Positions 8,528 through 36,527 of a stretch of 36,527 nucleotides of DNA are shown one piece after another (position 1 is the stretch's first letter; every line of letters starts with the position of its first letter). Made by a program: the position numbers and the translations under genes. The stretch is from NCBI RefSeq assembly GCF_029267515.1, contig NZ_JAJUIS010000016.1:1-36527 (forward strand). Direction: 5' to 3'. The notes under the pieces were generated by a model. The model was not told the DNA's origin and made no database searches. It was given only the letters and a program-made list of their open reading frames with translations. This stretch comes from Seleniivibrio woodruffii. GTDB lineage: Bacteria; Chrysiogenota; Deferribacteres; Deferribacterales; Geovibrionaceae.

Positions 8528-9847
8528 ATGCACCGAAGAATCAAAAAAGGGCTTAACCTGCCGATAAAGGGGTGTCCTTCGGGAGAGATAACCGATATGA
8601 CAACCGTCGGCAGGGTCGGTATTCTGGGGGATGATTATCCGGGTCTGCGACCTTCCGTAAAGGTGAGGGTCGGGGACAGGGTGAGAAAAGGGCAAATCCT
8701 TTTCACCGACAGGAAAAATCCGTCTCTGCTTTTTACATCGCCCGCATCGGGTACTGTTGCGGAGATAAACCGCGGGGAGAAAAGAAAATTTCTTTCGCTT
8801 GTCATTGAAAAAGACGGCAGCGAACCCGAAAGGTTCGATACGGACGTTTCAGACAAGGCAAAGGTTCTTGAGCTCTTAAAGGTATCCGGTCTGCTCACAA
8901 AGTTCAGAAAACGCCCGTTTGCCGTGTGCGTACACGCTGAGGAAGAGCCGGAAGCTGTGTTTGTCAACTGTATGGACACGCGCCCTCTCGCGCCGGATAT
9001 GTCTCTGGTGCTTTCAAACTATAAAGATTATTTCTACGAAGGTCTTAAAGCCGTTGCGAAACTTTCAGGCAAGACGTATGCCTGCTGCGGGAACGGACTA
9101 ACCATTGACGCTGTTGAGGGTGTTGAAACCGCAGTTTTCGACGGTGTGCATCCGGCCGGACTTACAGGCACCCACGTACACTTCCTGCGCCCCGTTGCGC
9201 AGGGCAGGGTTGTCTGGACGGTTGATATGCAGACGGTGATAGACTTCGGCTATCTCATTAAACATAAAGAACTTAATGAAGAGCGCATTATATCCGTAGG
9301 CGGAACTATGGTGGAGAACCCAAGCCACATCCGCACGGTGCACGGCGCATGTATATCATGGCTCACCAGAGGCAGGCTTAAAACAGGAGACGTACGGGTT
9401 ATCAACGGTTCCGTGCTTTACGGACTGCCTGTAACCCCGCAGACGGCTTATCTGTCGGAGAATTTCGCGCAGATATCAGCCGTTGCCGAGCAGACGGAGC
9501 GTCCGTTCATGGGCTGGCTTCTGCCGGGGTTCAGGATGCACTCGGTGGTCAACGTGTTCGCTTCAAAGGTATTCGGCGAAAAGGACATCCGGTTCGATAC
9601 GTCGCTGAACGGCAGTTTCAGGGCAATGGTGCCGGTGGGCACCTATGAAAAAGTGATGCCGCTGGACATTCTGCCCACTCACCTTCTGCGGGCTTTGCAG
9701 GTGAATGACTACGAAGGTGCTGAAAAACTCGGCGCGCTGGAACTTTCCGAAGAGGATCTGAGCCTCTGTACATACGTCTGTCCGGGCAAAACCGATTATG
9801 CGCCTCTTCTGCGCGACGCCCTCACAACCATTGAGAAGGAGGGCTGA
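8528..9847 (+). CDS. nqrA: Na+-translocating NADH:quinone reductase subunit A
   Basis: 439-aa protein. The N-terminus IKKGLNLPIKG is the NqrA signature. It also has the barrel-sandwich part (VGDRVRKGQILFTDRKNP...SPASGTVAEINRGEKR) and the typical C-terminus MPLDILPTHLLRALQVNDYE...CTYVCPGKTDY. NqrA is the peripheral subunit implicated in quinone binding. Length and domain order distinguish it from RnfC, which carries 4Fe-4S motifs that are absent here. It is the first gene of nqrABCDEF, 2 bp ahead of nqrB. Confidence 0.95.
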   Translation: MHRRIKKGLNLPIKGCPSGEITDMTTVGRVGILGDDYPGLRPSVKVRVGDRVRKGQILFTDRKNPSLLFTSPASGTVAEINRGEKRKFLSLVIEKDGSEPERFDTDVSDKAKVLELLKVSGLLTKFRKRPFAVCVHAEEEPEAVFVNCMDTRPLAPDMSLVLSNYKDYFYEGLKAVAKLSGKTYACCGNGLTIDAVEGVETAVFDGVHPAGLTGTHVHFLRPVAQGRVVWTVDMQTVIDFGYLIKHKELNEERIISVGGTMVENPSHIRTVHGACISWLTRGRLKTGDVRVINGSVLYGLPVTPQTAYLSENFAQISAVAEQTERPFMGWLLPGFRMHSVVNVFASKVFGEKDIRFDTSLNGSFRAMVPVGTYEKVMPLDILPTHLLRALQVNDYEGAEKLGALELSEEDLSLCTYVCPGKTDYAPLLRDALTTIEKEG

Positions 9848-23601: not shown

Positions 23602-25065
23602 ATGACTTCAAAAAATGGTTTTATCGTTCAATGTATTGTCATTGCCGGACTGATTGTGTCTGCGTTATCGCTTGAAAGCGGTTCTGCTTTGAAAATTATA
23701 ATAATCTTATCTTCCTCAGCCATTGCTGCCGCAGGTTATTTCTCTTTTGCAAAGCAGAGGCAGACAGGGAAAGACGCTTTCGATGATTTCCTCACTTCCG
23801 GTGACTATTCCGCTTTGAAAGACACTTCTGTTAAAGAGAATCTGCGTGATTTCATAGGAAAACTGGACAGAGATATGAAAGACTCATACTCTTCCGTTTC
23901 AGCCGCAACGGATGCCGCTATCCCTCTGATAAATCAGATTGCTGAGATAAAAGAGATCGCCGGACACAGCGGTGTTATTTCTTCGCAGCTCGCCGCTTCC
24001 GGTCAGGAGCTTACATTCGCCATAAATGAAATATCCGGTATCGTCGGCGATACTGTTGAGCGTGCAGGCAGGTCTGTGGATCTGGCAAAAAAAGGTGCGC
24101 TCAGATTCCGTGATGTCGGTGAGAAGTCTGAAATAATGCGTGAAACTATGGAACTGCTCTCAACTGACATAAGACAGCTTGAATCTGAGGCGCACAAGAT
24201 AGATGATGTCCTGAAAGTTATCGGCGATCTTTCGGATCAGACCAATATGCTATCGCTCAATGCAGCCATTGAGGCGGCAAGAGCAGGAGAGGCAGGACGC
24301 GGATTTGCCGTTGTTGCGGACGAGGTGCGTAAACTTGCGGAACGGACTAAATCAGCCACTGAAGATATTGAAAAAGTTGTTAAAAGCATTACGTACAGCA
24401 TCCGCGATGCGGCGCAGATGTCAAAAACGGCATCAGAAGCAGTTGTGTCTCAGATCGCTATCAGCAGCGAAGCAGGGGAAAATTTCCTGGCTGTCGCCGG
24501 AGATATAGAGGAGATAAGCTCACATATTCTCGGTGTTTCAGCGGCTGTCGGTCAGCAGCATGAGGCGGCGGAGCTTATCATGCAGAATCTGGGACTGCTC
24601 GAAAATGACGCACTGGTTCTGAATTCTGAGGGCGATGTCTTGGCTAAATCAATAAACTCACTCATGGAATCCATAAACGGCATAGAGAGTTCTCTCTCTC
24701 ACTATAAAAAAGGTGACAGTGCGGCAATGTTCATCAGAGCGAAAATAGCGCACGCGAATGTTCTGAGGGCTATGCAGATGGCTGTTATCAGCAAAAAGAC
24801 AGATATGAAGATACCCGACCACGCAAACTGTATGTTCGGAAAGACTTATTACAGCAGGGAATATCAAGATAGATTCGGCAAAGATGCAGATTTCAGAGCA
24901 ATTGAAGAACCGCATAAAATGGCGCATAAATACGCTGATGCCGTTGTGGATTCCGTCAGAAGGGGCGATCCGGACACGCTGGACAAACTGCGCAGTTTCA
25001 GCGGCGCTGTGAACGATTTCGTTTATGCTATGAACAGAACCATAACAAAACTTCAACAGAAGTAG
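23602..25065 (+). CDS. Methyl-accepting chemotaxis protein with C-terminal CZB (zinc-binding) domain
   Basis: 487-aa protein. Two closely spaced N-terminal TM helices leave essentially no periplasmic sensor. The coiled-coil signalling domain has the hairpin tip [20 protein letters not shown] followed by [15 protein letters not shown]. The C-terminal ~120 residues form a CZB domain: His in AKIAHANVL, then [13 protein letters not shown], then PHKMAHKYA, giving the 3-His/1-Cys zinc set. CZB chemoreceptors sense zinc or oxidants such as hypochlorous acid inside the cell. ATG 23602 is preferred because GGGTGAT just ahead is the ribosome-binding site; GTG 23593 is the in-frame alternative. The stop codon sits inside the bidirectional terminator. 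Confidence 0.88.
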
Positions 25066-25089
25066 GGAGTTAACGCTCCCTACATTTTT
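25062..25089. terminator. Bidirectional terminator shared by the chemoreceptor and desulforedoxin genes
   Basis: GTAGGGAG (25062-25069) and CTCCCTAC (25076-25083) form a perfect 8-bp stem with a TTAACG loop; T-run at 25085-25089. The stem contains the stop codons of both convergent genes. Confidence 0.8.
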
Positions 25090-25196
25090 GTCATCTTTAC
25101 CATGCAGCACATCAGAGCACCGCTGCCGCCGTTTTCAACCTTAACAACAGCGTTGCACACTTTACAGATATAGGTTTCGCCTTTTTTTGTCGCCAT
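25080..25196 (-). CDS. dsr: Desulforedoxin-like FeS4 protein
   Basis: 38-aa minus-strand gene. It has the desulforedoxin pattern: YICKVC near the N-terminus, a Gly-rich turn (VENGGSGAL) and the adjacent pair MCCM, giving four Cys ligands for a rubredoxin-like FeS4 site (C11, C14, C30, C31). The same domain forms the N-terminus of desulfoferrodoxin (superoxide reductase), but here it stands alone as in Desulfovibrio desulforedoxin. GAGGTG lies seven bases ahead of the ATG. The Tn7-like element begins about 25 bp upstream, so the native promoter has probably been cut off. The gene symbol is tentative. Confidence 0.85.
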   Translation of the reverse strand: MATKKGETYICKVCNAVVKVENGGSGALMCCMVKMTKM

Positions 25197-25220: not shown

Positions 25221-25320
25221 ATGTATCTTTAAATTAAAGTTGAACACTTTTAAAATAAGTCAGACACTTTTTAAATAAGATGAACACTTTTAAAATAAGT
25301 TGGACACCATATTTATGCCT
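25221..25320. repeat. Transposon right end: TnsB-site-like 20-bp tandem repeat array
   Basis: Units start at 25241, 25261, 25281 and 25301, each exactly 20 bp apart; the consensus begins TGAACACTTTTAAAATAAG. Units 1 and 3 are identical, unit 2 differs at a few bases, and unit 4 keeps only the start (TGGACAC). The 20 bp at 25221-25240 look like a further diverged unit. Closely packed 22-bp TnsB sites are a feature of the Tn7 right end, and TGAACA also occurs in Tn7's sites. TGT at 25222 is my best guess for the element's terminus; the exact boundary is uncertain because the other end lies outside the window. Confidence 0.75.
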
Positions 25321-25350: not shown

Positions 25351-26085
25351 ATGCCTGACTTGTCATTCGGTCAACCAAAGTTAAATGAATATACACCTGC
25401 TCTCACCGTAAGGGATGTGAAATCTCCCAACTCCAGATCTAAACGTGTGATGGGGTATAAAACAGGTCGGGTTCATCACTTCCTTTCAGACTATGAATCC
25501 GGATATTATTATCTGCTGGAATGGGCTGATAACGTTACTGATATCCGAGAACAGTTCCCTCTCGATATAAATGAAACCAAAGAGATAGCTGAACTTATCA
25601 ATGTCAGACATCCAGCTTACAAAGGCAGCGATATCGTAATGACGACTGACTTTGTTGTAACTATAAAATCAGGTCTCACCATTGCAAGAACTGTTAAATT
25701 CTCAAAAGACCTCGAAGACAAGCGTATTCTTGAGAAATTCAGTATTGAACAGGAATATTGGGTCAGAAGAGGTGTGGATTGGGGTATCGTGACCGAAAAA
25801 GAGCTGGATAAGGTTCTGATTCAAAATATCAAATTCTTTCTGCCCTATAAGACTCATGTCTGTGATGAGAAGATTGTCGAGACTATTTTGTCTGAAATAT
25901 CCTGCGGCAAAGGCAGGCTGAAAGAAGTGCTGGCATATTCGGATAACTATTTTGAGCTTGAAACAGGTTCTAGTCTTAATGTTTTTAAAGCGTTGGTCGC
26001 CGGAAAGAAGCTGGCTTTAGATATGGAAAAGAGATTCAGTGTGACAATGAATTGCGATGAAATAAGTATTGTTGGTGCTTCATGA
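25351..26085 (+). CDS. tnsA: Tn7-like transposase endonuclease subunit TnsA
   Basis: 244-aa protein with the restriction-endonuclease-like TnsA fold. Likely catalytic residues are E57 (LLEWAD), D100 (MTTDFVV) and K116 (VKFSKDL), matching the E63-D114-K132 order of Tn7 TnsA. The C-terminal part (EYWVRRGVDWGIVTEKEL) matches the TnsA C-terminal winged-helix domain. TnsA cuts the 5' ends of the element so that TnsAB performs cut-and-paste. Intact. ATG 25351 lies 22 bp after the -10 box. It overlaps tnsB by 4 bp (ATGA). Confidence 0.92.
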   Translation: MPDLSFGQPKLNEYTPALTVRDVKSPNSRSKRVMGYKTGRVHHFLSDYESGYYYLLEWADNVTDIREQFPLDINETKEIAELINVRHPAYKGSDIVMTTDFVVTIKSGLTIARTVKFSKDLEDKRILEKFSIEQEYWVRRGVDWGIVTEKELDKVLIQNIKFFLPYKTHVCDEKIVETILSEISCGKGRLKEVLAYSDNYFELETGSSLNVFKALVAGKKLALDMEKRFSVTMNCDEISIVGAS

Positions 26086-28121
26086 TTGTAAAAAATCAGG
26101 TTCTAAAGCTCGATGATGAGCGTCTCGTCAGGGTTTTGTGGATTGATCCGAACAACATATATGCATTTATCTATGATATAGACACATCTGGTCTGCCGGA
26201 AAGAGTTGATATCATAGATTTGTCTAAGTCAGCAGCAGATGCGGAAGATCCTTATGTAAATGTGGTTAGCGATGAGATCATTAGTGAAAATCATATTGAA
26301 AAGCGTAACGATCGCTGGCGTATCATTGAAAACTTGGTGACTCTTGAACCTGAAATATATATGCAAAAACAGAGAGGCAAACTAATTCAAAACACAGCAG
26401 AAATAACAGGTTCGCATAAAAAATTTATCTATGTGTTGTTAAAGCAGTTCTGGCAGAGAGGTATGACGAAGAATGCTCTCTTGCCGGATTACAACAACTG
26501 CGGTAGGGCTGTCCCAACTGCTGAAAGTCAAAAGGTCGGGCGTAAAAAGAAGTATAATGATGTAATAGGCAACGGAATTAAAATTACTGTTGATATAGAG
26601 AAAATTTTCAGTCACGTTTTCAAAAATTATCATAAAAATGCACAGAAGATGTCATTGATGGACGCTTACAGGGCAATGATCACCGAATATTTCAAAGAGG
26701 CTCTAGACAGCAAAGGCAACAATCTGGCTATTCCATCCTATCACCAGTTCAGAAGAAGATATTTGCAGCGGTATTCATCAGAAGAGATAGCCAAAGCGAA
26801 TAAAGGTGAAAAGGCATATTACAAGGATGTTCGTCCATTGCTTGGTAATTCAGGTGGTGAGGCTTATTGTCCCGGCGATAAGTACCAGATCGATGCGACT
26901 ATAGCCGATATTTACCTTGTCTCTTCCATGCACAGGGAATGGATAGTTGGAAGACCTGTAGTGTATTTTTGCATAGACGTTTTTACCCGTATGGTTGCAG
27001 GGTTTTATGTTGGTCTCACAGGTCCGAGTATGGAAGGGGCTATGATGGCCATTCTTAATTGTGCTGAAGATAAAGTCAGTTTTTGCAGGCAGTTTGGTAT
27101 TGAAATAAGTGCTGAAGACTGGCCTGTTCAGAATCTTCCGAAATGTTTCCTCGGTGATAACGGTGAAATGAGAGGCATCACGCCTGAGAATGCTATCAGG
27201 AGCTTCAATATTGAAATAGAGACCACAGGAAGCTACAGAGCTGATATGAAAGGCATTGTTGAGAGACATTTCAGAACAGTTCATGACAGAGTTAAACCCG
27301 TTGCTCCCGGTTTCGTTCTGCCGGATTATCAGGAACGTGGCGGCAGGGATTACAGACAGGATGCCGTCTTAACCATTGATGAGTTTACGAAAATCATTAT
27401 ACATTCAATCCTTGAGCATAATGATAAGATTATAAAAGATTATCCGTTCGATGCGGAGCTTGCGGGTGCTGATATAACATACACTCCGAAAGAACTCTGG
27501 AAATGGGGTGTTGAGCATCGTGCCGGAGCATTGAGAACCGTATCTTTGGAGCAACTTAAAGCGTCTTTGCTGCCACATAAAGATGCAACTGTAACTTCAA
27601 AAGGTATCAGACTGCACAACGACGTATTCTATACGCTACCTCTGGCAATGGAGCTTGGCTGGTTTGAGAGGAAATCAGGAGCAAAAAGCATGAAAGTCCA
27701 GCTTTCATATAATCCCAGAAACCTTACCGAAGCATATATCATTCATAACGGTGAGTATCTTCCTGTTTATCCGACTCCCGCATCAAACGCAGTCGGATAT
27801 AACCTTGAAGAGCTGGAATTTTATACAGAGCAGCTCAAATATAAACAGAGCCTTGCGGCGAAAAGTGAATTCCGCAAAAAGAGTATCTCTGACAAAGCTA
27901 TTAATGCAGTGATCAATAAAGCAAAAGTTGAGTCAGAACTGACAGCAACATCGAAAAAGAAATCCACTCAGGATGTCCGTTCAAACCGAAGGCTTGAGGA
28001 TATAAACCGCAGAAACGTTGTTCAGGATATCAGGAAAGAGCCTGAACCCGCCAAAACGAAAGACAGATTTCTGGCTATGCTGGAAGAAGTAAGGGATGAG
28101 GGGAACGAAAATGAATCATGA
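26082..28121 (+). CDS. tnsB: Tn7-like DDE transposase subunit TnsB
   Basis: 679-aa Mu/Rve-type transposase. The catalytic triad is D271 (YQIDAT), D359 (LGDNGE) and E394 (GIVERHF), almost the same spacing as D273-D361-E396 of Tn7 TnsB. N-terminal helix-turn-helix domains would bind the 20-bp end repeats. The basic C-terminal tail (KSTQDVRSNRRLEDINRRN...KDRFLAML) is the usual TnsC-contacting region. No disruption seen. It overlaps tnsC by 11 bp. Confidence 0.93.
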   Translation: MIVKNQVLKLDDERLVRVLWIDPNNIYAFIYDIDTSGLPERVDIIDLSKSAADAEDPYVNVVSDEIISENHIEKRNDRWRIIENLVTLEPEIYMQKQRGKLIQNTAEITGSHKKFIYVLLKQFWQRGMTKNALLPDYNNCGRAVPTAESQKVGRKKKYNDVIGNGIKITVDIEKIFSHVFKNYHKNAQKMSLMDAYRAMITEYFKEALDSKGNNLAIPSYHQFRRRYLQRYSSEEIAKANKGEKAYYKDVRPLLGNSGGEAYCPGDKYQIDATIADIYLVSSMHREWIVGRPVVYFCIDVFTRMVAGFYVGLTGPSMEGAMMAILNCAEDKVSFCRQFGIEISAEDWPVQNLPKCFLGDNGEMRGITPENAIRSFNIEIETTGSYRADMKGIVERHFRTVHDRVKPVAPGFVLPDYQERGGRDYRQDAVLTIDEFTKIIIHSILEHNDKIIKDYPFDAELAGADITYTPKELWKWGVEHRAGALRTVSLEQLKASLLPHKDATVTSKGIRLHNDVFYTLPLAMELGWFERKSGAKSMKVQLSYNPRNLTEAYIIHNGEYLPVYPTPASNAVGYNLEELEFYTEQLKYKQSLAAKSEFRKKSISDKAINAVINKAKVESELTATSKKKSTQDVRSNRRLEDINRRNVVQDIRKEPEPAKTKDRFLAMLEEVRDEGNENES

Positions 28122-29184
28122 TAAGCCTGAAGACCTGATGGCCGTTTATAAAAAGCAGCTTGTGAAGCAGTATGAGGGCAATATTCTGATTGAAGCGTTG
28201 CCGGAGATAATGGATTTTAAACAGATTGCCCGTGCATTGACCAGTAAACCTGTGTTCTCGGCAGATGAGAAACAGTTGCCGGAACATATCAGAGCGGCGA
28301 GTCTCAGCCGTATATTCTCATACTTTCAGCCGCTATCCATCCATGTCGAATATGCTGACAAGATCGGCAGGATGATACGTGACGGCTATATTTCCAGAAG
28401 ACCGAAACCTGTGAGAGAACAGCTTGCTCCGGAAGAGCTTGCTGAGTATATGAAATCAGTAGGTGAATCGGATGTTTTTGACTGCGTAGCAAGTGCCGGA
28501 GTTCTGGGCATGTCCGGTATGGGAAAGACCACTACCACGAATAAGATTCTGTCACTTTACCCACAGCAGATAATCCATGGGAGACCTTACAATCTGACTC
28601 AGGTTGTGTGGGTGAAAATAGATTGCCCCTCAAACGGGAGCATGAAAAAACTCTGTACCTCCTTCTTTCAGGCGATAGATGATATTCTTGAGACTGAATA
28701 CGCAAGATTATATAACAAACTCTCCATAGATGACCTTCTGGCAAAAATGGCTGACGTGGCCGCAAGACACTATGTTGGTCTGTTTGTGATTGATGAGATC
28801 CAGCACCTTGTCAAAGCCAAGGGAACGGGCGACAGAGCCATGCTTAATTTTCTGGTGACAATGAATAATGTCGTTAAAGTGCCTGTTCTGCTTATAGGTA
28901 CTCCCAACGCAAAGGCTTTGCTGCAAAGAGAATTCCGGCAGGCAAGACGCATGGACGGCATCGGCGGCATCTACTGGAAACGTCTCGGAAAAGGCGATTA
29001 CTGGGATTTCTTTATCAAAGGACTCTGGAAATATAACTGGCTGAAGAATGACGTGCCGCTCTCACAGGAGCTTTCCGATGTTTTGTATGAAGAGAGCCAG
29101 GGAATCATTGACGTTGTGCTGAAGATATTCCTTGCTGCTCAGTACAGAGCCATTCTTGATGAATCTGAAACCATTACGCCGTAG
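28111..29184 (+). CDS. tnsC: Tn7-like AAA+ regulator TnsC, cut short by an in-frame amber codon
   Basis: 357 residues to the TAG at 29182. The AAA+ core is complete: Walker A GMSGMGKT (133-140), Walker B LFVIDE (224-229), sensor LIGTPNA (261-267), then EESQGIIDVVLKIFLAAQ. The stop falls directly after ETITP, where TnsC proteins normally continue with LIR and a C-terminal domain; exactly such a continuation is encoded in frame after the TAG. Read through, the product would be 524 residues, close to Tn7 TnsC (555). The N-terminal TnsD-contacting part and ATPase remain, while the TnsA/TnsB-contacting tail would be lost. ATG 28111 has GAGGGG seven bases ahead; ATG 28096 is a poorer start. Confidence 0.85.
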   Translation: MNHDKPEDLMAVYKKQLVKQYEGNILIEALPEIMDFKQIARALTSKPVFSADEKQLPEHIRAASLSRIFSYFQPLSIHVEYADKIGRMIRDGYISRRPKPVREQLAPEELAEYMKSVGESDVFDCVASAGVLGMSGMGKTTTTNKILSLYPQQIIHGRPYNLTQVVWVKIDCPSNGSMKKLCTSFFQAIDDILETEYARLYNKLSIDDLLAKMADVAARHYVGLFVIDEIQHLVKAKGTGDRAMLNFLVTMNNVVKVPVLLIGTPNAKALLQREFRQARRMDGIGGIYWKRLGKGDYWDFFIKGLWKYNWLKNDVPLSQELSDVLYEESQGIIDVVLKIFLAAQYRAILDESETITP

Positions 29185-29685
29185 TTAATCAGGTTTGCCG
29201 CACAGCATGATATCCCGAACATGCGGGAGACTATTGATGCAATTAAAGCAAATCCTGACATGGCGGAGAAAGTCCACGGAGACGTTACAGCCGCCACCAT
29301 GGAGGACATTGTTTCCAATGTCCGGAGTTCTGTGCCCAGCAAGACACATTCTGACGATGAAAGCGGGCAGACTTCCGTTCTGGGTCGTGCAGTTAGTACA
29401 CTTATGTCTATGGATATTCCTGAAACCTATGCTGTCAGAGAAGTCTGTGATTTGCTGAAAAGATTTCCCGATATGGCTATGAAAAACATCGTTGGGAAGG
29501 TTATCGAATCTTATGACAAATTAATGAAGTCTCAGAATCAACCGAAGAGAAAGGAAGACAAACCTGAGCTTTTAAAAATCAGAGACACGGCAGAGGCAAA
29601 AGGACTGCCAGTTTACGATGCTTTAAAGGAACACGGTCTGATCAAGAACCCTTCGGAGGACTTTGAGTTGGGAGCAAAAGACTAA
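29185..29685 (+). pseudogene. tnsC: C-terminal remainder of tnsC after the amber codon
   Basis: In-frame continuation of tnsC: LIRFAAQHDIPNMRETIDAI follows the TAG without any shift and stays open for 166 codons to TAA 29683. The segment LIRxxA...IDAIK is what TnsC proteins carry after their AAA+ domain. It ends in a basic linker (NQPKRKEDKPELLK) and a helical tail. An internal ATG at 29221 exists, but no ribosome-binding site precedes it, so separate translation looks unlikely. Either a point nonsense mutation split the gene, or the amber is read through. Confidence 0.75.
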
Positions 29686-29726
29686 CCTGTTTTCCTGATC
29701 CTTACCCTCACGAGCTTCTTTGCAGT

Positions 29727-31247
29727 GTGGTTGCCAGATACCACAGGAATATGTCTTACACAAATTTAAGCCACAGTCTCAATGACCTTTTTGGAACTCC
29801 AAACATAAAAGCAGTTTATGACTTGCCTTGTCACATCGGTGAGCTGGCGGGGCGGCTCAATTATTCAGGATTTACATACACAGCTTCCGAACTCATAAGA
29901 AACCATACCCTGTTCAATCTTTACGAACCTTTTCTGCCAAATGAGCTGGCTGAGAAAACTTATGCCAGGATGCTAGGATGTGGCTCACTCGGTCTACATG
30001 CTTCATTAGGGTTGTGTTCTTCCACAGTCCCGATGCTGGAATATTATAAATTCTGTCCGGAATGCAATGCGGAATTTATGAAGTCTCATGGCGGAATATA
30101 TCTGCACAGGGTGCACCAGACCCCATGTATTGACGTATGTCCTTATCACAGGATACCGCTTTTCAATTCATCAGTGACGATAGAAAACTTTGATGGCAGA
30201 CACATAAGCTATAACAGGAGCCTTGTTGATTTATCGAAATATGATTATTCCATGTTGGTTCGTATTGCGGAGGCTTTTGAATATATTATTTCCGGTCAGC
30301 TCCGGTGTTCGTATGCAGATCTGAAGCTCAGATATAGAAGCCTTTTGAAAGAGCAAAATTATCTGTACGGAAACACAAGATTGGACACCCAAAAAGTAAT
30401 GAATGATTTTATTAATCATTACGGTGAAAAGCTGCTTATGAGGTTTGGGGCAACTGTTGAAGATGTATATTGTAACTGGTTATTATCTGCCTTTCGGAAC
30501 ACAGATCGCATCACCCACCCTGTCAGACATATCCTGATTATTCTGTTTTTCTGTGAGTCCGTTCATGATTTCAGTCAGCACAGCCCCTTGTCGGAATTGA
30601 AGCCAGAAAAACGAATAAATGCCCCCAAAAACGATTTTGCACACCATTACAAGTCAATACTCGCTTTGATTGATAAATTCCCAGAGAAGAGCCGTCAGGC
30701 ACTCAGGAGTATGGACAATGCCGCTTACCAATGGCTGAATATTCATGATAAAGATTGGTTTGAACGGCATATGCCGCCGAAGCGTATCCCAAAACCCGTT
30801 CCTAAGAGAATCAACTGGGCTGATAAGGATTCTGAGGTTCTGGCAAAAGTCAAAAAAAGCGTTTCCCAACTTTTGAGTGAGCGTAACCCGTTCGTGCGTG
30901 TTACTATTTATGCAGTATGCGGCAGAAGTGGCGAACAATACCGTATATTAAATAATCGCCATAAGCTGCCGAAGACTATGAAGTATTTAGAAGCTGTTGC
31001 TGAGACTTCATTACAGTTTCAATATCGCAAAATTCGTTGTGTCATAAGTGACACAAATGAAGAACTTACGAAGGAGCTGATTTACAAAAATGCCTGTATT
31101 GTTAAGTACAGGTTCAGGGAAGTGGATGATTACATAGAGTCATTGTTTAGCGGGGTTCAAATAAATGTCGGTAAAAATTCAGGCGTTCAAAGCAGTCGAA
31201 TATGCGACAATCTACTGGGTTGGCGGCTTCGTCAAAAGAAACAATGA
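29727..31247 (+). CDS. tnsD: TniQ-family target selector TnsD, with no canonical start for its true N-terminus
   Basis: 506 aa from GTG 29727. Family zinc motif FCPECNAEF...HRVHQTPCIDVCPYH is clear, and the length matches TnsD, which binds an attachment site and recruits TnsC. The hallmark TniQ opening FPDPYPHELLCSVVARYH is encoded from 29691, so translation should begin near 29685, giving about 520 aa. In that frame there is no ATG, GTG or TTG between the stop at 29664 and 29727; the expected start position holds ACC at 29685, right after a GGGAG. From GTG 29727 the protein would lack its first ~14 conserved residues. It overlaps tnsE by 83 bp. Confidence 0.75.
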   Translation: MVARYHRNMSYTNLSHSLNDLFGTPNIKAVYDLPCHIGELAGRLNYSGFTYTASELIRNHTLFNLYEPFLPNELAEKTYARMLGCGSLGLHASLGLCSSTVPMLEYYKFCPECNAEFMKSHGGIYLHRVHQTPCIDVCPYHRIPLFNSSVTIENFDGRHISYNRSLVDLSKYDYSMLVRIAEAFEYIISGQLRCSYADLKLRYRSLLKEQNYLYGNTRLDTQKVMNDFINHYGEKLLMRFGATVEDVYCNWLLSAFRNTDRITHPVRHILIILFFCESVHDFSQHSPLSELKPEKRINAPKNDFAHHYKSILALIDKFPEKSRQALRSMDNAAYQWLNIHDKDWFERHMPPKRIPKPVPKRINWADKDSEVLAKVKKSVSQLLSERNPFVRVTIYAVCGRSGEQYRILNNRHKLPKTMKYLEAVAETSLQFQYRKIRCVISDTNEELTKELIYKNACIVKYRFREVDDYIESLFSGVQINVGKNSGVQSSRICDNLLGWRLRQKKQ

Positions 31248-32691
31248 GCCTCCGAGATTGCGTGTTTATACATCTCAGAACGGTTTCGTATGGTACTATC
31301 TCGTTCCTCTCGGAATGCTCCCGTGGATGTTCATAGGATCGACATATGAGTACGGTAGACCAAGCGGTGTCGTCAAAAGCGGAACTTTCAATTTCAAACT
31401 GCCCAGAATGTCTGATATCCGGTTTGTTCCTTTCAGTGATATGTCTGTTTCCCTGAGAGAAAATCGTAGAAATCCGGAGATAACGAAGGAATATGTGTGC
31501 AAGTTTGTGTCGGGAGAGCGAACGTATTACATACCGCAAATGGAGATAATCAGGGCTTTTCTGGGCATGAATTCTTCCATGTCCAAATACATTTTGTCGC
31601 CATCAGGCTTTGAGGATTTATGCAGAATTGTGAGTGCTGATGATGAGAGAGTTGAGCTTGAATTCAGCAACAGGTTTGCACGGAACAGTCTTAACTATTC
31701 AACAGCTTCATGTGTTGCGACACAGCTGCTTGATCAGAACTTTCGTGACTTCCGTCACAGCGTTTACGAGTGCTTCAGATTGAATGACCAGAGCCAGCTT
31801 TTCAAACCTTCCGGACTTGATAACCTGACCTTTTACTGCAATGGACGCTGGTCTGGAAATGATTATCTTGTGTGGCAAATTTCGTCAGTGAAAAACATAA
31901 ATGTTCCGTTTGATAACCTGTTGTTTTCACATGTGAACGATTCATCTGCGGAGAGAAGTGGAGTGGATACAAAAGACAAAAAAGCATACATACCACGCCG
32001 TGGTGAAGACGGTTATGAGGTGACTGGTTCTGATTATTCCAGACGTGAGTCGAACCCGATTACCATGTGGAATGAAACGGCAAAAGTATCTTATGGTTTC
32101 AATAAAAAAGTGCATTGCAAACGGAAGGAAAGCAAGAAAGATAGACAATATAAAGCCACTATCAGAATAGATAAAGGCAAAGCACCTGATAGTAACCTAC
32201 TGAGTGCCGGAATCGGTGTTGGTGACGGTAAAATTAAGCCGCTGGAAATTGATAATGTATCACTGTATGAGACCTATAAAAAGGACATCAGAGGGCTTGA
32301 AGATTTCCTGAGAGCAGTTGAGTATCTGAAGACAATGATTCCGGTTGAACGTGTCCATATCGGCAGTTTATTCGGCGATAAAAAGTTCGTTATGCTGGAT
32401 GAAAGTACCCGCCGTTCTTATGCAATAGTGTATCTTCAAAACGCATTTATTATCGAGGTTGCAAGACCGGATGAACACTCAATTGCCACGCTTATTCTGA
32501 AGAACATTTCGGAGAAACAATTCAACTATTATCTGCGCTCTTTGCTCACAAGCATGATTGATAATGGCGGTCATTGGGACTTCGATGTGCTTAATGCTCT
32601 CTTTTCTGATAATTATTTTATTACCAAGCATATGATGTTTGACACTTATTTTGTATGGTCTAAACGACTAATTAAGCATGTCATAATATGA
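31165..32691 (+). CDS. tnsE: Tn7-like target selector TnsE
   Basis: 508 aa, close to Tn7 TnsE (538). Segments that align by eye with Tn7 TnsE are the N-terminal beta region (IYWVGGFVKRNNEPPRLRVY), RTYYIPQMEIIRAFLGMNSS, and the C-terminal DNA-binding domain FIIEVARPDEHSIATLILKN followed by HWDFDVLNALF. A low-complexity charged middle (residues ~270-330) separates the halves. TnsE directs insertion into replicating DNA, especially conjugal plasmids, through the sliding clamp and recessed 3' ends. It appears intact. The start lies inside the end of tnsD with GGGG upstream. Confidence 0.85.
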   Translation: MSVKIQAFKAVEYATIYWVGGFVKRNNEPPRLRVYTSQNGFVWYYLVPLGMLPWMFIGSTYEYGRPSGVVKSGTFNFKLPRMSDIRFVPFSDMSVSLRENRRNPEITKEYVCKFVSGERTYYIPQMEIIRAFLGMNSSMSKYILSPSGFEDLCRIVSADDERVELEFSNRFARNSLNYSTASCVATQLLDQNFRDFRHSVYECFRLNDQSQLFKPSGLDNLTFYCNGRWSGNDYLVWQISSVKNINVPFDNLLFSHVNDSSAERSGVDTKDKKAYIPRRGEDGYEVTGSDYSRRESNPITMWNETAKVSYGFNKKVHCKRKESKKDRQYKATIRIDKGKAPDSNLLSAGIGVGDGKIKPLEIDNVSLYETYKKDIRGLEDFLRAVEYLKTMIPVERVHIGSLFGDKKFVMLDESTRRSYAIVYLQNAFIIEVARPDEHSIATLILKNISEKQFNYYLRSLLTSMIDNGGHWDFDVLNALFSDNYFITKHMMFDTYFVWSKRLIKHVII

Positions 32692-32761: not shown

Positions 32762-35008
32762 ATGGAGATGGATATGAGCGATAATTTCGTTAATATACAG
32801 ACGGGGAAATTTGAGGAAGTACTGGCTCTTGCATTTTCCCCGACAGTTGCGTTGTCTGAATTGATAAAGAATGCATCAGATGCTTGCTCAAAGAAAAATG
32901 ATACCATTATTATCAAAATTGATACTAAAAATAGGTCAATTTTGATTAAAGACAACGGTATCGGTTTGTCAAAATCTGATATAACCAAATTGAGAGATGT
33001 TGGATATTCAGATAAAATGCGGGATGGAAACAATTTGTCAGCAATTGGCGAGCCTTATGCTGGTAGTAAAGGTTTGGGTCTTTTAACGGCCTTTTATTTG
33101 TGCGAAGATCTTGAGATTCGTACATTCTCTGAGGTTGATAAATGTGCATATAAAATTACTTGGAGAAAGGGCACAAATATCATCAAAGATTTAAAAATAG
33201 ATGAAGATATTACTGGTACTGAATTATACTTGCATAATATAAGCATTGAAAATATTTCTTATATTACTTTAGAAGAAGAATTAAAAATTCTATATATGAC
33301 ATCAATTAATTATTATATAGAAAATCACTCTCTTCCTATAATTCAAATATATGTCGATGAAGTTTTAAAATCGGTATCTCCTATCAAGAAAATTGATCAA
33401 CTATATGAAAGCAATAAAAAGGGGCTTAAGAATAAAGGCTATTTTGTTGCCAAAGCTTCATTTAAATATTCTAAAGGAATTCTAACGCTTTCTTATGAGG
33501 ATAATATTGAAAATGTGTATTGTTTTTCAGATGAAAAAATACAAATAACTGATATAAACTCAATAATAAGTTTTTTGAAATCAAAACAAATCACACTTAA
33601 TCGATATCGTGATATGTTTATCAAACTAGAGGGCTTAAATTGCGATGTTGATGATTTTGAAGGTGTGTATTATATTTGGAGAGATAAAAAAAACGATGAA
33701 ATAGTTGATTACCCATATGGTATTAGAATTTATGTTAATAATTATGGGTTATATTCTTATCTTAATCAAGATTATGATTGGCTTGGACATTCTGAAATAT
33801 CACAAAATAAAAAGGCTTCAAACTTCAAACTTAAAAACACATATGGGTATGTTTGTTTCACAAACTATAATGAACCTAATGCGTGGATGAAAATTGCAAA
33901 AGAGAGAAACGATTTTGAAGGTACTTTAGCAAAAAGAAAATTTAGTTTAATTATGAGAGAATTTGTGTCCGGAATATTTAGTGATATAGATATTAAAATC
34001 AAAAATTATGTTAAAAATAATCATTATACCTTTCGCCTTAGACATAATAAAAGAAATATCGTGCTTGGAAATTTATTCAATTTGAAAGAATTACTGAATA
34101 CTGACCTTATATTTGATGAAATTGAGATTAAGTGTGAAAATACAGAATATGTTCTTGGTGAAGATGGCGATATAACATTTAACGATTGTGGACAGTACCA
34201 TTTTTCATTTCAATATGAAGAAAGAATTTTAGAAGCCATTGTTAATGTTTTAGATCCAGCGCCTAATTTTACAATCAAAAAGAAAGTTACTGTTGATGAA
34301 AATAATTCATACGATTTGCGCCTATTGATTAATAGGAGTAAATTGGAGAATATCGAACTGGCTCAAATTGAAATTTCAAGTGATGAAGTCGATATCAAGA
34401 ATGGTATGCTTTCGCCACATACTCCCCCGGGAACTTACACAATATACTACAAGTATACTGATGAAGAACTTGAAATATGCCACACGGCAGAAGTGACTGT
34501 GAAACAGATTAATTCTAATGAAGCAAAAAAAATTAAAAAGCTTTTTGGAGATTATTATAAGCTGGTTGGATATGATAAGACAAAAGAGATTATAGACGGA
34601 ATAGCTGCGTGCCATATCAATTATCCTACAATATGTATGTTTAGTTTAAGGGTTTTGACTGAGATTCTTTTGAAAGATTTCTTTGCTAAATATTGTTTGG
34701 ATTCGGATTATAACAATGATGGGAACTTGCCTGGCAAACTTGAAGCATTTTTAAATAGAGCTTTTATAAATTCAGAAAAGAATAATGTCATGAAAAAATT
34801 GGTTGACCAAAGTATTCAAAATAAATACTTCAACAAGCTTAATGATGGTAATATAAAAAAGAGAATCCTCAAATCATATAATAACCTCGAACTCAATTTG
34901 TTCGTACATAACCCAGAGTTCAAATGCACTACTGGTGAATTTAAACAAAGTTTAAATATAATGATTCCTGTGTATAATTTAATAATAGAGGCTCTACTAT
35001 TTGAGTAA
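32762..35008 (+). CDS. MORC/MutL-like GHKL ATPase (defence-type cargo)
   Basis: About 748 aa, AT-rich. The N-terminal GHKL ATPase domain has N-box SELIKNASDA (E33, N37), DNGIG (64-68) and GSKGLGLL (101-108), the pattern of Hsp90/MutL/MORC proteins rather than histidine kinases, since there is no H-box. The middle (~200-480) is an unrecognised S5/beta-rich region; ~500-580 looks like an Ig-like beta module (SPHTPPGTYTIYYKYTDEE). The C-terminus is helical (LRVLTEILLKDFFAKY). Bacterial MORC-like ATPases are known next to methylases in restriction-modification loci, which fits the methyltransferase that follows. Starts at 32762, 32768 or 32774 all have a usable ribosome-binding site. Confidence 0.7.
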   Translation: MEMDMSDNFVNIQTGKFEEVLALAFSPTVALSELIKNASDACSKKNDTIIIKIDTKNRSILIKDNGIGLSKSDITKLRDVGYSDKMRDGNNLSAIGEPYAGSKGLGLLTAFYLCEDLEIRTFSEVDKCAYKITWRKGTNIIKDLKIDEDITGTELYLHNISIENISYITLEEELKILYMTSINYYIENHSLPIIQIYVDEVLKSVSPIKKIDQLYESNKKGLKNKGYFVAKASFKYSKGILTLSYEDNIENVYCFSDEKIQITDINSIISFLKSKQITLNRYRDMFIKLEGLNCDVDDFEGVYYIWRDKKNDEIVDYPYGIRIYVNNYGLYSYLNQDYDWLGHSEISQNKKASNFKLKNTYGYVCFTNYNEPNAWMKIAKERNDFEGTLAKRKFSLIMREFVSGIFSDIDIKIKNYVKNNHYTFRLRHNKRNIVLGNLFNLKELLNTDLIFDEIEIKCENTEYVLGEDGDITFNDCGQYHFSFQYEERILEAIVNVLDPAPNFTIKKKVTVDENNSYDLRLLINRSKLENIELAQIEISSDEVDIKNGMLSPHTPPGTYTIYYKYTDEELEICHTAEVTVKQINSNEAKKIKKLFGDYYKLVGYDKTKEIIDGIAACHINYPTICMFSLRVLTEILLKDFFAKYCLDSDYNNDGNLPGKLEAFLNRAFINSEKNNVMKKLVDQSIQNKYFNKLNDGNIKKRILKSYNNLELNLFVHNPEFKCTTGEFKQSLNIMIPVYNLIIEALLFE

Positions 35009-35057
35009 AATAATATCTGACAATTTGAAATAAAGATGCTAAACTAAATACTTTTCC

Positions 35058-35086
35058 TGGACATTTCCTTGTTGCCTATATATACT
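35058..35086 (+). promoter_or_regulatory. Promoter of the methyltransferase gene
   Basis: TGGACA (35058-35063), 17-bp spacer, TATACT (35081-35086), each 5 of 6 to consensus, with GGAGG at 35102-35106 before the ATG at 35112. The methyltransferase can therefore be expressed independently of the ATPase gene, as is common in restriction-modification loci. Confidence 0.55.
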
Positions 35087-35111
35087 TCCTGTATGATGCA
35101 GGGAGGTTGAA

Positions 35112-36527
35112 ATGTCACAAGACGTTTGGGATATAAATCTTGATTATGAAAGCATAAATGCTGAAACAACCTGCTTCTCTTCAGGTTCATTAATCCATCC
35201 TTACCCTGCCAAGGCAATGCCAAATATGGTGAGCGATCTTCTCAAAATCATTAAATCAAATTATATCGTGCGTAATGTGCTAGACCCATTTTGTGGTAGC
35301 GGGACAGTTGGGCTTGAATCAAAATTGCTTGGTTTAGATTTCTTTGGGTCAGACTTGAACCCACTAGCCGTTCTGATTGCAAAAACAAAAACATTAACTA
35401 TTGATAATAAAGATTATGTATATGAGCAGATTGCATCTTTAATTGAAGATATTAAGAGAAAGAATACACTAATTTGTCCAATATTGGATTTTCCCAATAT
35501 TGATTACTGGTTTGTTCAAACAAATATAATACAAATATCTAATATTAAATTCTTGATTAATAAGTTCTTAAAAGACAAGAAAAAAGATAGGCAGACTTAT
35601 TCTCTGATTCTATTGACCGCTTTTAGTTCTACTATAAGGGAAGTTTGTTTATCAAGAAACGGAGAGTTTAAGCTTTATCGAATACCTGAAGCTGAAATTG
35701 AAAACTGGAAGATTGATGCCTATGATGTCTTTAAAAAGAAGATTGATAATCTTTTTAATTTGCTTAATGAGACAAGCTCCTATTCATATCGAAGCAAGGT
35801 AGATATTTACCAAGCAAATGCAAAAGAGATAGGCTATCTTTCTAATAATTCAATTAATGTTGTGTTGACCTCGCCGCCATATGGTGATTCTAAAACGACC
35901 GTAGCATATGGGCAGTTTTCACGTTTACCGTTACAATGTATTGGCGATTTGTTGGAAAAATACCTAAAGATAAACACTGAACATGTTAATTGCGATGAAT
36001 TGCTGCTTGGTGGAAAGAAGTCTATCATCAATAGCAGAAATGCTTTGATAAAGAAAATTACGGATGAATCAGCAACTTTAAGTCAGCTTTTTGAATCCAT
36101 TGATTGTTTGATTCTTCGAGAAACAATTGGTTTAGAACAAGTTGCACGGCACTTGAAAGGTATTTATGATGAAAGAAAATATGAGGGATCTGATAATACT
36201 GTCATTATTAATCGCTTGAAGTCTTACATTAAGAAAAGAATCGAAAAGCGTCGTGTTCGTAGTAAAGAATTCTATTTCATAGAAGCTAATAAATACTTGA
36301 ATTTTAATAATTTATCGAAAAGTAAGATATATCGTAGGACTCAGCACCTTAATAATCTTACAAATGGTCTTATCGAAAGTCACAAAAATAAAATATCAGG
36401 ATTACCCAACAGAAAAGAAGAAATCATCAACTTCTTTATAGATTTATATCAAGTGTTTAATGAAACTGACAGGGTATTAAAACAAGAAGGATTACAGGGA
36501 TGGATTATTGGTAACAGAACAGTCCTT
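35112..36527 (+). CDS. DNA methyltransferase (N4-cytosine/N6-adenine type), partial at the window edge
   Basis: 472 codons without a stop up to the last base. It opens with HPYPAKAMPNMV (motif X-like), then DPFCGSGT (residues 58-65, SAM-binding motif I) and SDLNPLA (motif II-like). The catalytic motif IV TSPPYGD lies far downstream at residues 253-259. SPPY suggests N4-cytosine methylation, but N6-adenine is possible. The ~190 residues between motifs I and IV and the long basic helical region after IV (INRLKSYIKKRIEKRRVR) are candidates for target recognition. GGAGG lies five bases before the ATG. It is the second cargo gene, after the GHKL ATPase; a nuclease may follow outside the window. 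Confidence 0.82.
   Translation, partial: MSQDVWDINLDYESINAETTCFSSGSLIHPYPAKAMPNMVSDLLKIIKSNYIVRNVLDPFCGSGTVGLESKLLGLDFFGSDLNPLAVLIAKTKTLTIDNKDYVYEQIASLIEDIKRKNTLICPILDFPNIDYWFVQTNIIQISNIKFLINKFLKDKKKDRQTYSLILLTAFSSTIREVCLSRNGEFKLYRIPEAEIENWKIDAYDVFKKKIDNLFNLLNETSSYSYRSKVDIYQANAKEIGYLSNNSINVVLTSPPYGDSKTTVAYGQFSRLPLQCIGDLLEKYLKINTEHVNCDELLLGGKKSIINSRNALIKKITDESATLSQLFESIDCLILRETIGLEQVARHLKGIYDERKYEGSDNTVIINRLKSYIKKRIEKRRVRSKEFYFIEANKYLNFNNLSKSKIYRRTQHLNNLTNGLIESHKNKISGLPNRKEEIINFFIDLYQVFNETDRVLKQEGLQGWIIGNRTVL

Follow-up and report, generated by a model that had tools for sequence, protein, structure and literature searches.

Does the in-frame amber codon in the tnsC gene of a Tn7-like element end translation, or is it read through, complemented by a second protein, or an error in the assembled sequence? 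The element is encoded in the window, i.e., the complete 36,527-bp contig that was analyzed, which belongs to a genome of 2.83 Mb (35 contigs, 99.97% complete, 0 contamination). Below, we argue that an ordinary nonsense mutation is the probable explanation. A second translational peculiarity, a tnsD gene devoid of a recognized start codon, is treated separately.

Position of the amber codon and comparison with homologs

The TAG at positions 29182–29184 of the forward strand is codon 363 of tnsC and directly follows the residues ESETITP. The subsequent codons encode LIRFAAQHDIPN, and the next stop in this frame is a TAA at 29683–29685, which leaves 166 codons open. An open run of this length is expected by chance with p ~4e-5, given the base composition of the window, and the tail proved homologous to TnsC tails upon sequence comparison. 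It is thus genuine coding sequence. The initial annotation had described exactly this, a TAG at 29182 following ETITP with the usual TnsC continuation in the open 166-codon frame, which is confirmed with respect to both frame and homology. The 362-residue product carries the Walker A (GMSGMGKTT) and Walker B (LFVIDEIQH) motifs. TnsC from the window matches Pfam AAA_22/TniB and is similar to the solved structures of TnsC from Escherichia coli Tn7 (7mbw/8glu; E 3e-76). The features of the element and of its surroundings are listed in Table 1.

Table 1. Coordinates of the Tn7-like element and of the adjacent host gene in the window
Feature	Position	Strand	Remarks
Host desulforedoxin-like gene	25080..25196	-	38 aa; named from the sequence by eye
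Transposon right end	25222..25308	+	TGT terminus at 25222; three 20-bp-phased TnsB-type repeats at 25237-25308
tnsA	25351..26085	+	Intact; E49, D100, and K116 invariant in 7 homologs
tnsB	26082..28121	+	Intact; D271, D359, and E394 aligned to the DDE triad
tnsC as found	28096..29184	+	362 aa; ends at the premature TAG
Open tnsC continuation	29185..29685	+	166 codons and TAA; TnsA-contact region at the far end
tnsD	29667..31247	+	TniQ and TnsD domains; frame open
tnsE-like	31165..32691	+	Length intact; weak TnsE_C match
Cargo	32762..36527	+	GHKL-ATPase/type II restriction-like ORF and methyltransferase ORF, the latter cut by the contig end

TnsC homologs from two related genomes, plasmids, one MAG, and Tn7 were compared at the stop column. 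All seven (L010, L011, L007, L008, L009, L003, and Tn7 on R721) have a sense codon in this column, so that the stop in tnsC is premature. The homologous proteins run for 130–170 residues beyond it, which excludes the possibility, raised in the initial annotation, that close homologs naturally end here. The residues found in the column are E, D, Q, L, G, and R (G in Tn7). A change from CAG, GAG, or AAG, as previously proposed, is arithmetically possible, but the residue which was replaced by TAG cannot be named because the column is not conserved. No relatives of TnsC or TnsD were found among viral contigs.

The stop column corresponds to residue 369 of Tn7 TnsC, the 362-residue product ending at the equivalent of residue 368 of 555. 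In Tn7, TnsC residues 1–293 are involved in TnsD binding and the last 50 residues in the contact to TnsA (PMC2918618; for the latter, see also PMC11406308). The TnsD-binding stretch precedes the stop, and the TnsA-contact region, which by alignment extends from window residue 484 (residue 504 in Tn7) onward, is located past it. The cut falls inside a stretch that can still be aligned to the solved TnsC structures. Because a short TnsC from Vibrio (about 330 aa) aligns across the stop column and continues, the truncated product appears to end within the AAA+ module and may thus represent an incomplete version of it.

The element and its insertion site

Elements are classified as Tn7-like when they encode TnsB (DDE) and the AAA+ protein TnsC together with TnsA and/or a TniQ family protein (PMC11406308). 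The element in the window has this gene set, in the order tnsA, tnsB, tnsC, tnsD, and a tnsE-like gene, followed by restriction-modification-type cargo. The TnsE_C match of the tnsE-like gene scores 22.9 bits, which is below the cut-off, and the comparison with the genes at the same position in two related elements gave E-values of 3e-53 (L011) and 1e-50 (L010). The first cargo gene has a low GC content (30%). Core genes that are all uninterrupted, as in an active Tn7-like element, were not found, owing to the TAG in tnsC.

Repeated TnsB sites and a TGT terminus were detected at the right end only, which resembles the end of the element from genome G017 (L011). A search for the TnsB-site pattern revealed no left end on this contig or elsewhere in the genome. 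A match on C9 was judged to be due to chance, as it comprises one site only, within an unrelated region.

Exactly 25 bp separate the end of the element from the start codon of the desulforedoxin-like gene, the element being on the 5′ side of the latter. An element remnant (L074) in the congener G022 has the identical spacing from the same gene with a different spacer sequence, so that insertion at a fixed distance is seen in two species. This remnant consists of the right end and 60 TnsA codons (95% protein identity to the window). In G022 (C1, about 166636 downward), the sequence is joined to an IS3-type transposase fragment from tnsA codon 61. The DNA identity between the window and G022 is 94% for the tnsA fragment versus 86% for the neighboring host gene. 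Eight of the 10 differences in the tnsA fragment are at third codon positions. A further congener, G023, has no insertion at the desulforedoxin-like site. The higher identity of tnsA, combined with the shared 25-bp spacing, points to separate site-directed insertions by a lineage with functional TnsABCD rather than to one old inherited insertion, even though the noncoding right ends are only moderately similar. As the same spacing occurs in a congener, the lineage is site-specific and required a working TnsC upon arrival. The 5′ side of the desulforedoxin-like gene is a possible new attachment site. The element from G017 is located 25 bp after glmS, as counted from the sequence.

Explanations for the stop codon

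We consider it likely that the TAG simply represents a premature stop, caused by a nonsense mutation after insertion of the element into the chromosome. This is favored because the stop is premature, the neighboring tns genes are intact, and no suppression machinery was detected (see below). Translation would terminate at codon 363, and the resulting 362-residue TnsC would retain the ATPase motifs and the TnsD-binding region. Loss of the tail would prevent recruitment of TnsA, and the element would thus be immobile in cis, leaving this copy stranded. The element would then represent an otherwise intact Tn7-like machinery that was disabled recently. Decay is ordinary among these elements, since tnsB from the sister element in G017 likewise contains a TAA in frame (L011:5572-5574).

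For the age of the mutation, we estimated how many nonsense changes each unit of neutral divergence should produce, namely, 15.5 in the tail and 293 in the tns frames taken together. At the 5% level, the intact frames limit neutral drift to ~0.19 substitutions/site for the tnsC tail alone and to ~0.01 substitutions/site over all tns genes, provided that all of these turned neutral after the TAG had arisen. The ratio of tail to core identity is 0.35–0.57 for the window, compared to 0.39–0.79 for pairs of the other homologs. This somewhat higher divergence of the tail could reflect relaxed constraint that is older than "very recent." Among the options of the initial annotation, a very recent nonsense mutation is the best supported one, the divergence of the tail counting against a very young age.

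The main alternative, which we consider unlikely, is that the TAG is a single-base sequencing or assembly error and that tnsC is intact in the organism. Such an error would be consistent with the intactness of the rest of the operon and with the need for functional TnsC at insertion, and the genome has no second tnsC copy that could corroborate the base. However, the site is outside any homopolymer and the assembly is of good quality, as specified above. Isolated substitution errors are rare in assemblies this good.

We regard it as highly improbable that TnsC is split, with the tail being made separately from ATG 29221 (154 aa) and complementing the N-terminal part, or that the truncated protein has a regulatory role. 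An ORF of 154 codons does exist, its ATG being 36 nt past the stop, and tail-less TnsC proteins occur in other Tn7-like elements (PMC11406308). However, no Shine-Dalgarno-like sequence precedes this ATG, no relative has a split tnsC, and the N-terminal product may be incomplete in its AAA+ module. The proposal that truncated TnsC serves as a dominant regulator or immunity factor is unsupported, as the cut is inside the structure-aligned stretch and the truncation is absent from every relative; it is thus not a conserved form.

Programmed or low-level amber readthrough, which would provide small amounts of full-length TnsC and throttle transposition, has a very low probability in our view. It would agree with a tail that is open and homologous and with the predicted RNA fold of the 101 nt from the TAG, which is somewhat better than that of shuffled sequences (z -2.1 to -2.2; 8 of 200 shuffles equally good). 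The fold is, however, unusual only nominally; among 30 other windows sampled through tnsC, one is also beyond z -2. The stop is not conserved among the seven homologs, and the base directly after the TAG is T, which is not a known leaky context. Release factor RF1 is present in the genome (515 bits) and PylS is absent, the best score (20.7 bits versus a cut-off of 178 bits) being a weak cross-match. A CUA anticodon was not found in any of the 37 assembled tRNAs, a list which tRNAs inside assembly gaps could escape. TAG also terminates other genes in the window, for example that for a chemoreceptor (25063-25065), the counterpart of which in a congener ends within a few codons of this position. 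Recoding by a suppressor tRNA or by pyrrolysine thus found no support in the assembled part of the genome.

A tnsD gene without a recognized start codon

In the window, none of the codons ATG, GTG, TTG, CTG, ATT, ATC, or ATA is found in tnsD ahead of the conserved motif FPDPYPHELL, the first start codon being GTG 29727. The same holds for L010 and L011, where no start codon of translation table 11 precedes FP(D/E)PY..ELL. The respective regions are 29655-29730 in the window, about 9200-9290 (reverse strand) in L010, and about 8640-8720 in L011. Between the motif and the first GTG, L010 and L011 differ by four changes, all of which are synonymous when read as tnsD, while in neither of the other two frames is any of them synonymous. 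Because only synonymous changes are found in the tnsD frame, the segment upstream of the GTG appears to be translated. GTG 29727 is an unlikely start codon, as its use would result in loss of the FPxPYxxELL motif and as its counterpart is GTG in L010 but GTA in L011. An extra T in tnsD from the window, i.e., a frameshift lesion, was also dismissed because both relatives show the same layout.

Tn7 tnsD starts with ATG AGA AAC TTT CCT. The codons matching this initial Met are TTA, TTA, and CTA in the three elements and overlap a TAA in the upstream frame. Inspection of all three sequences revealed a Shine-Dalgarno-like stretch before NTG GGA (TTG, TTG, and ATG), from which a -1 shift is needed to enter tnsD in each case. 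As a tentative explanation, to which we assign a rather low probability, TnsD may in this element family be made only by recoding at the tnsC/tnsD junction. This could be a -1 frameshift immediately after the Shine-Dalgarno-led NTG GGA start, which is located within tnsC or closely follows its end. Alternatively, translation could reinitiate at the UUA or CUA overlapping the upstream-frame stop (UUAA/CUAA). The amount of TnsD would then be limited by recoding and, in the window and L010, tied to translation of TnsC, so that the amber codon in tnsC could lower TnsC and TnsD together. About 300 bp of extra sequence are found between tnsC and tnsD in the element from G017 (L011:8338-8657).

A survey of 51 genomes from the phylum yielded no further relatives, and a search of the available literature returned nothing on start-less tnsD or such translational control in Tn7-like transposons. 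If real, this layout would mean that Tn7-like transposons regulate target selection at the level of translation, and it would matter more than the stop in tnsC.

Comparison with related elements

The element shares the gene order tnsA-B-C-D-E with Tn7 from E. coli (the copy on plasmid R721, L065), and TnsC is related over the whole protein, the part preceding the stop being about 41% identical. Both also have a right end with repeated TnsB sites, a TGT terminus, and a fixed distance from a host gene. In contrast to Tn7, the element has a premature stop in tnsC, a tnsD without recognized start, and a very divergent TnsE, and is inserted on the 5′ side of the desulforedoxin-like gene rather than at the 3′ end of glmS.

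The elements from G015 (L010) and G017 (L011) belong to the same family as that of the window and share with it the gene order and a start-less tnsD, with 41% sequence identity for TnsC and about 33% for TnsD. Their tnsC genes are uninterrupted, unlike that of the window, and it is tnsB that carries a stop in L011. Upstream of tnsA in L010, two similar right-end-like repeat blocks are located roughly 380 bp apart, which suggests that these are tandem element ends. The remnant in G022 shares its site, its spacing, and its closely similar TnsA start with the window element but differs from it by the loss of the remaining tns genes, by its junction to the IS3-type transposase fragment, and by the sequence of its TnsB sites.
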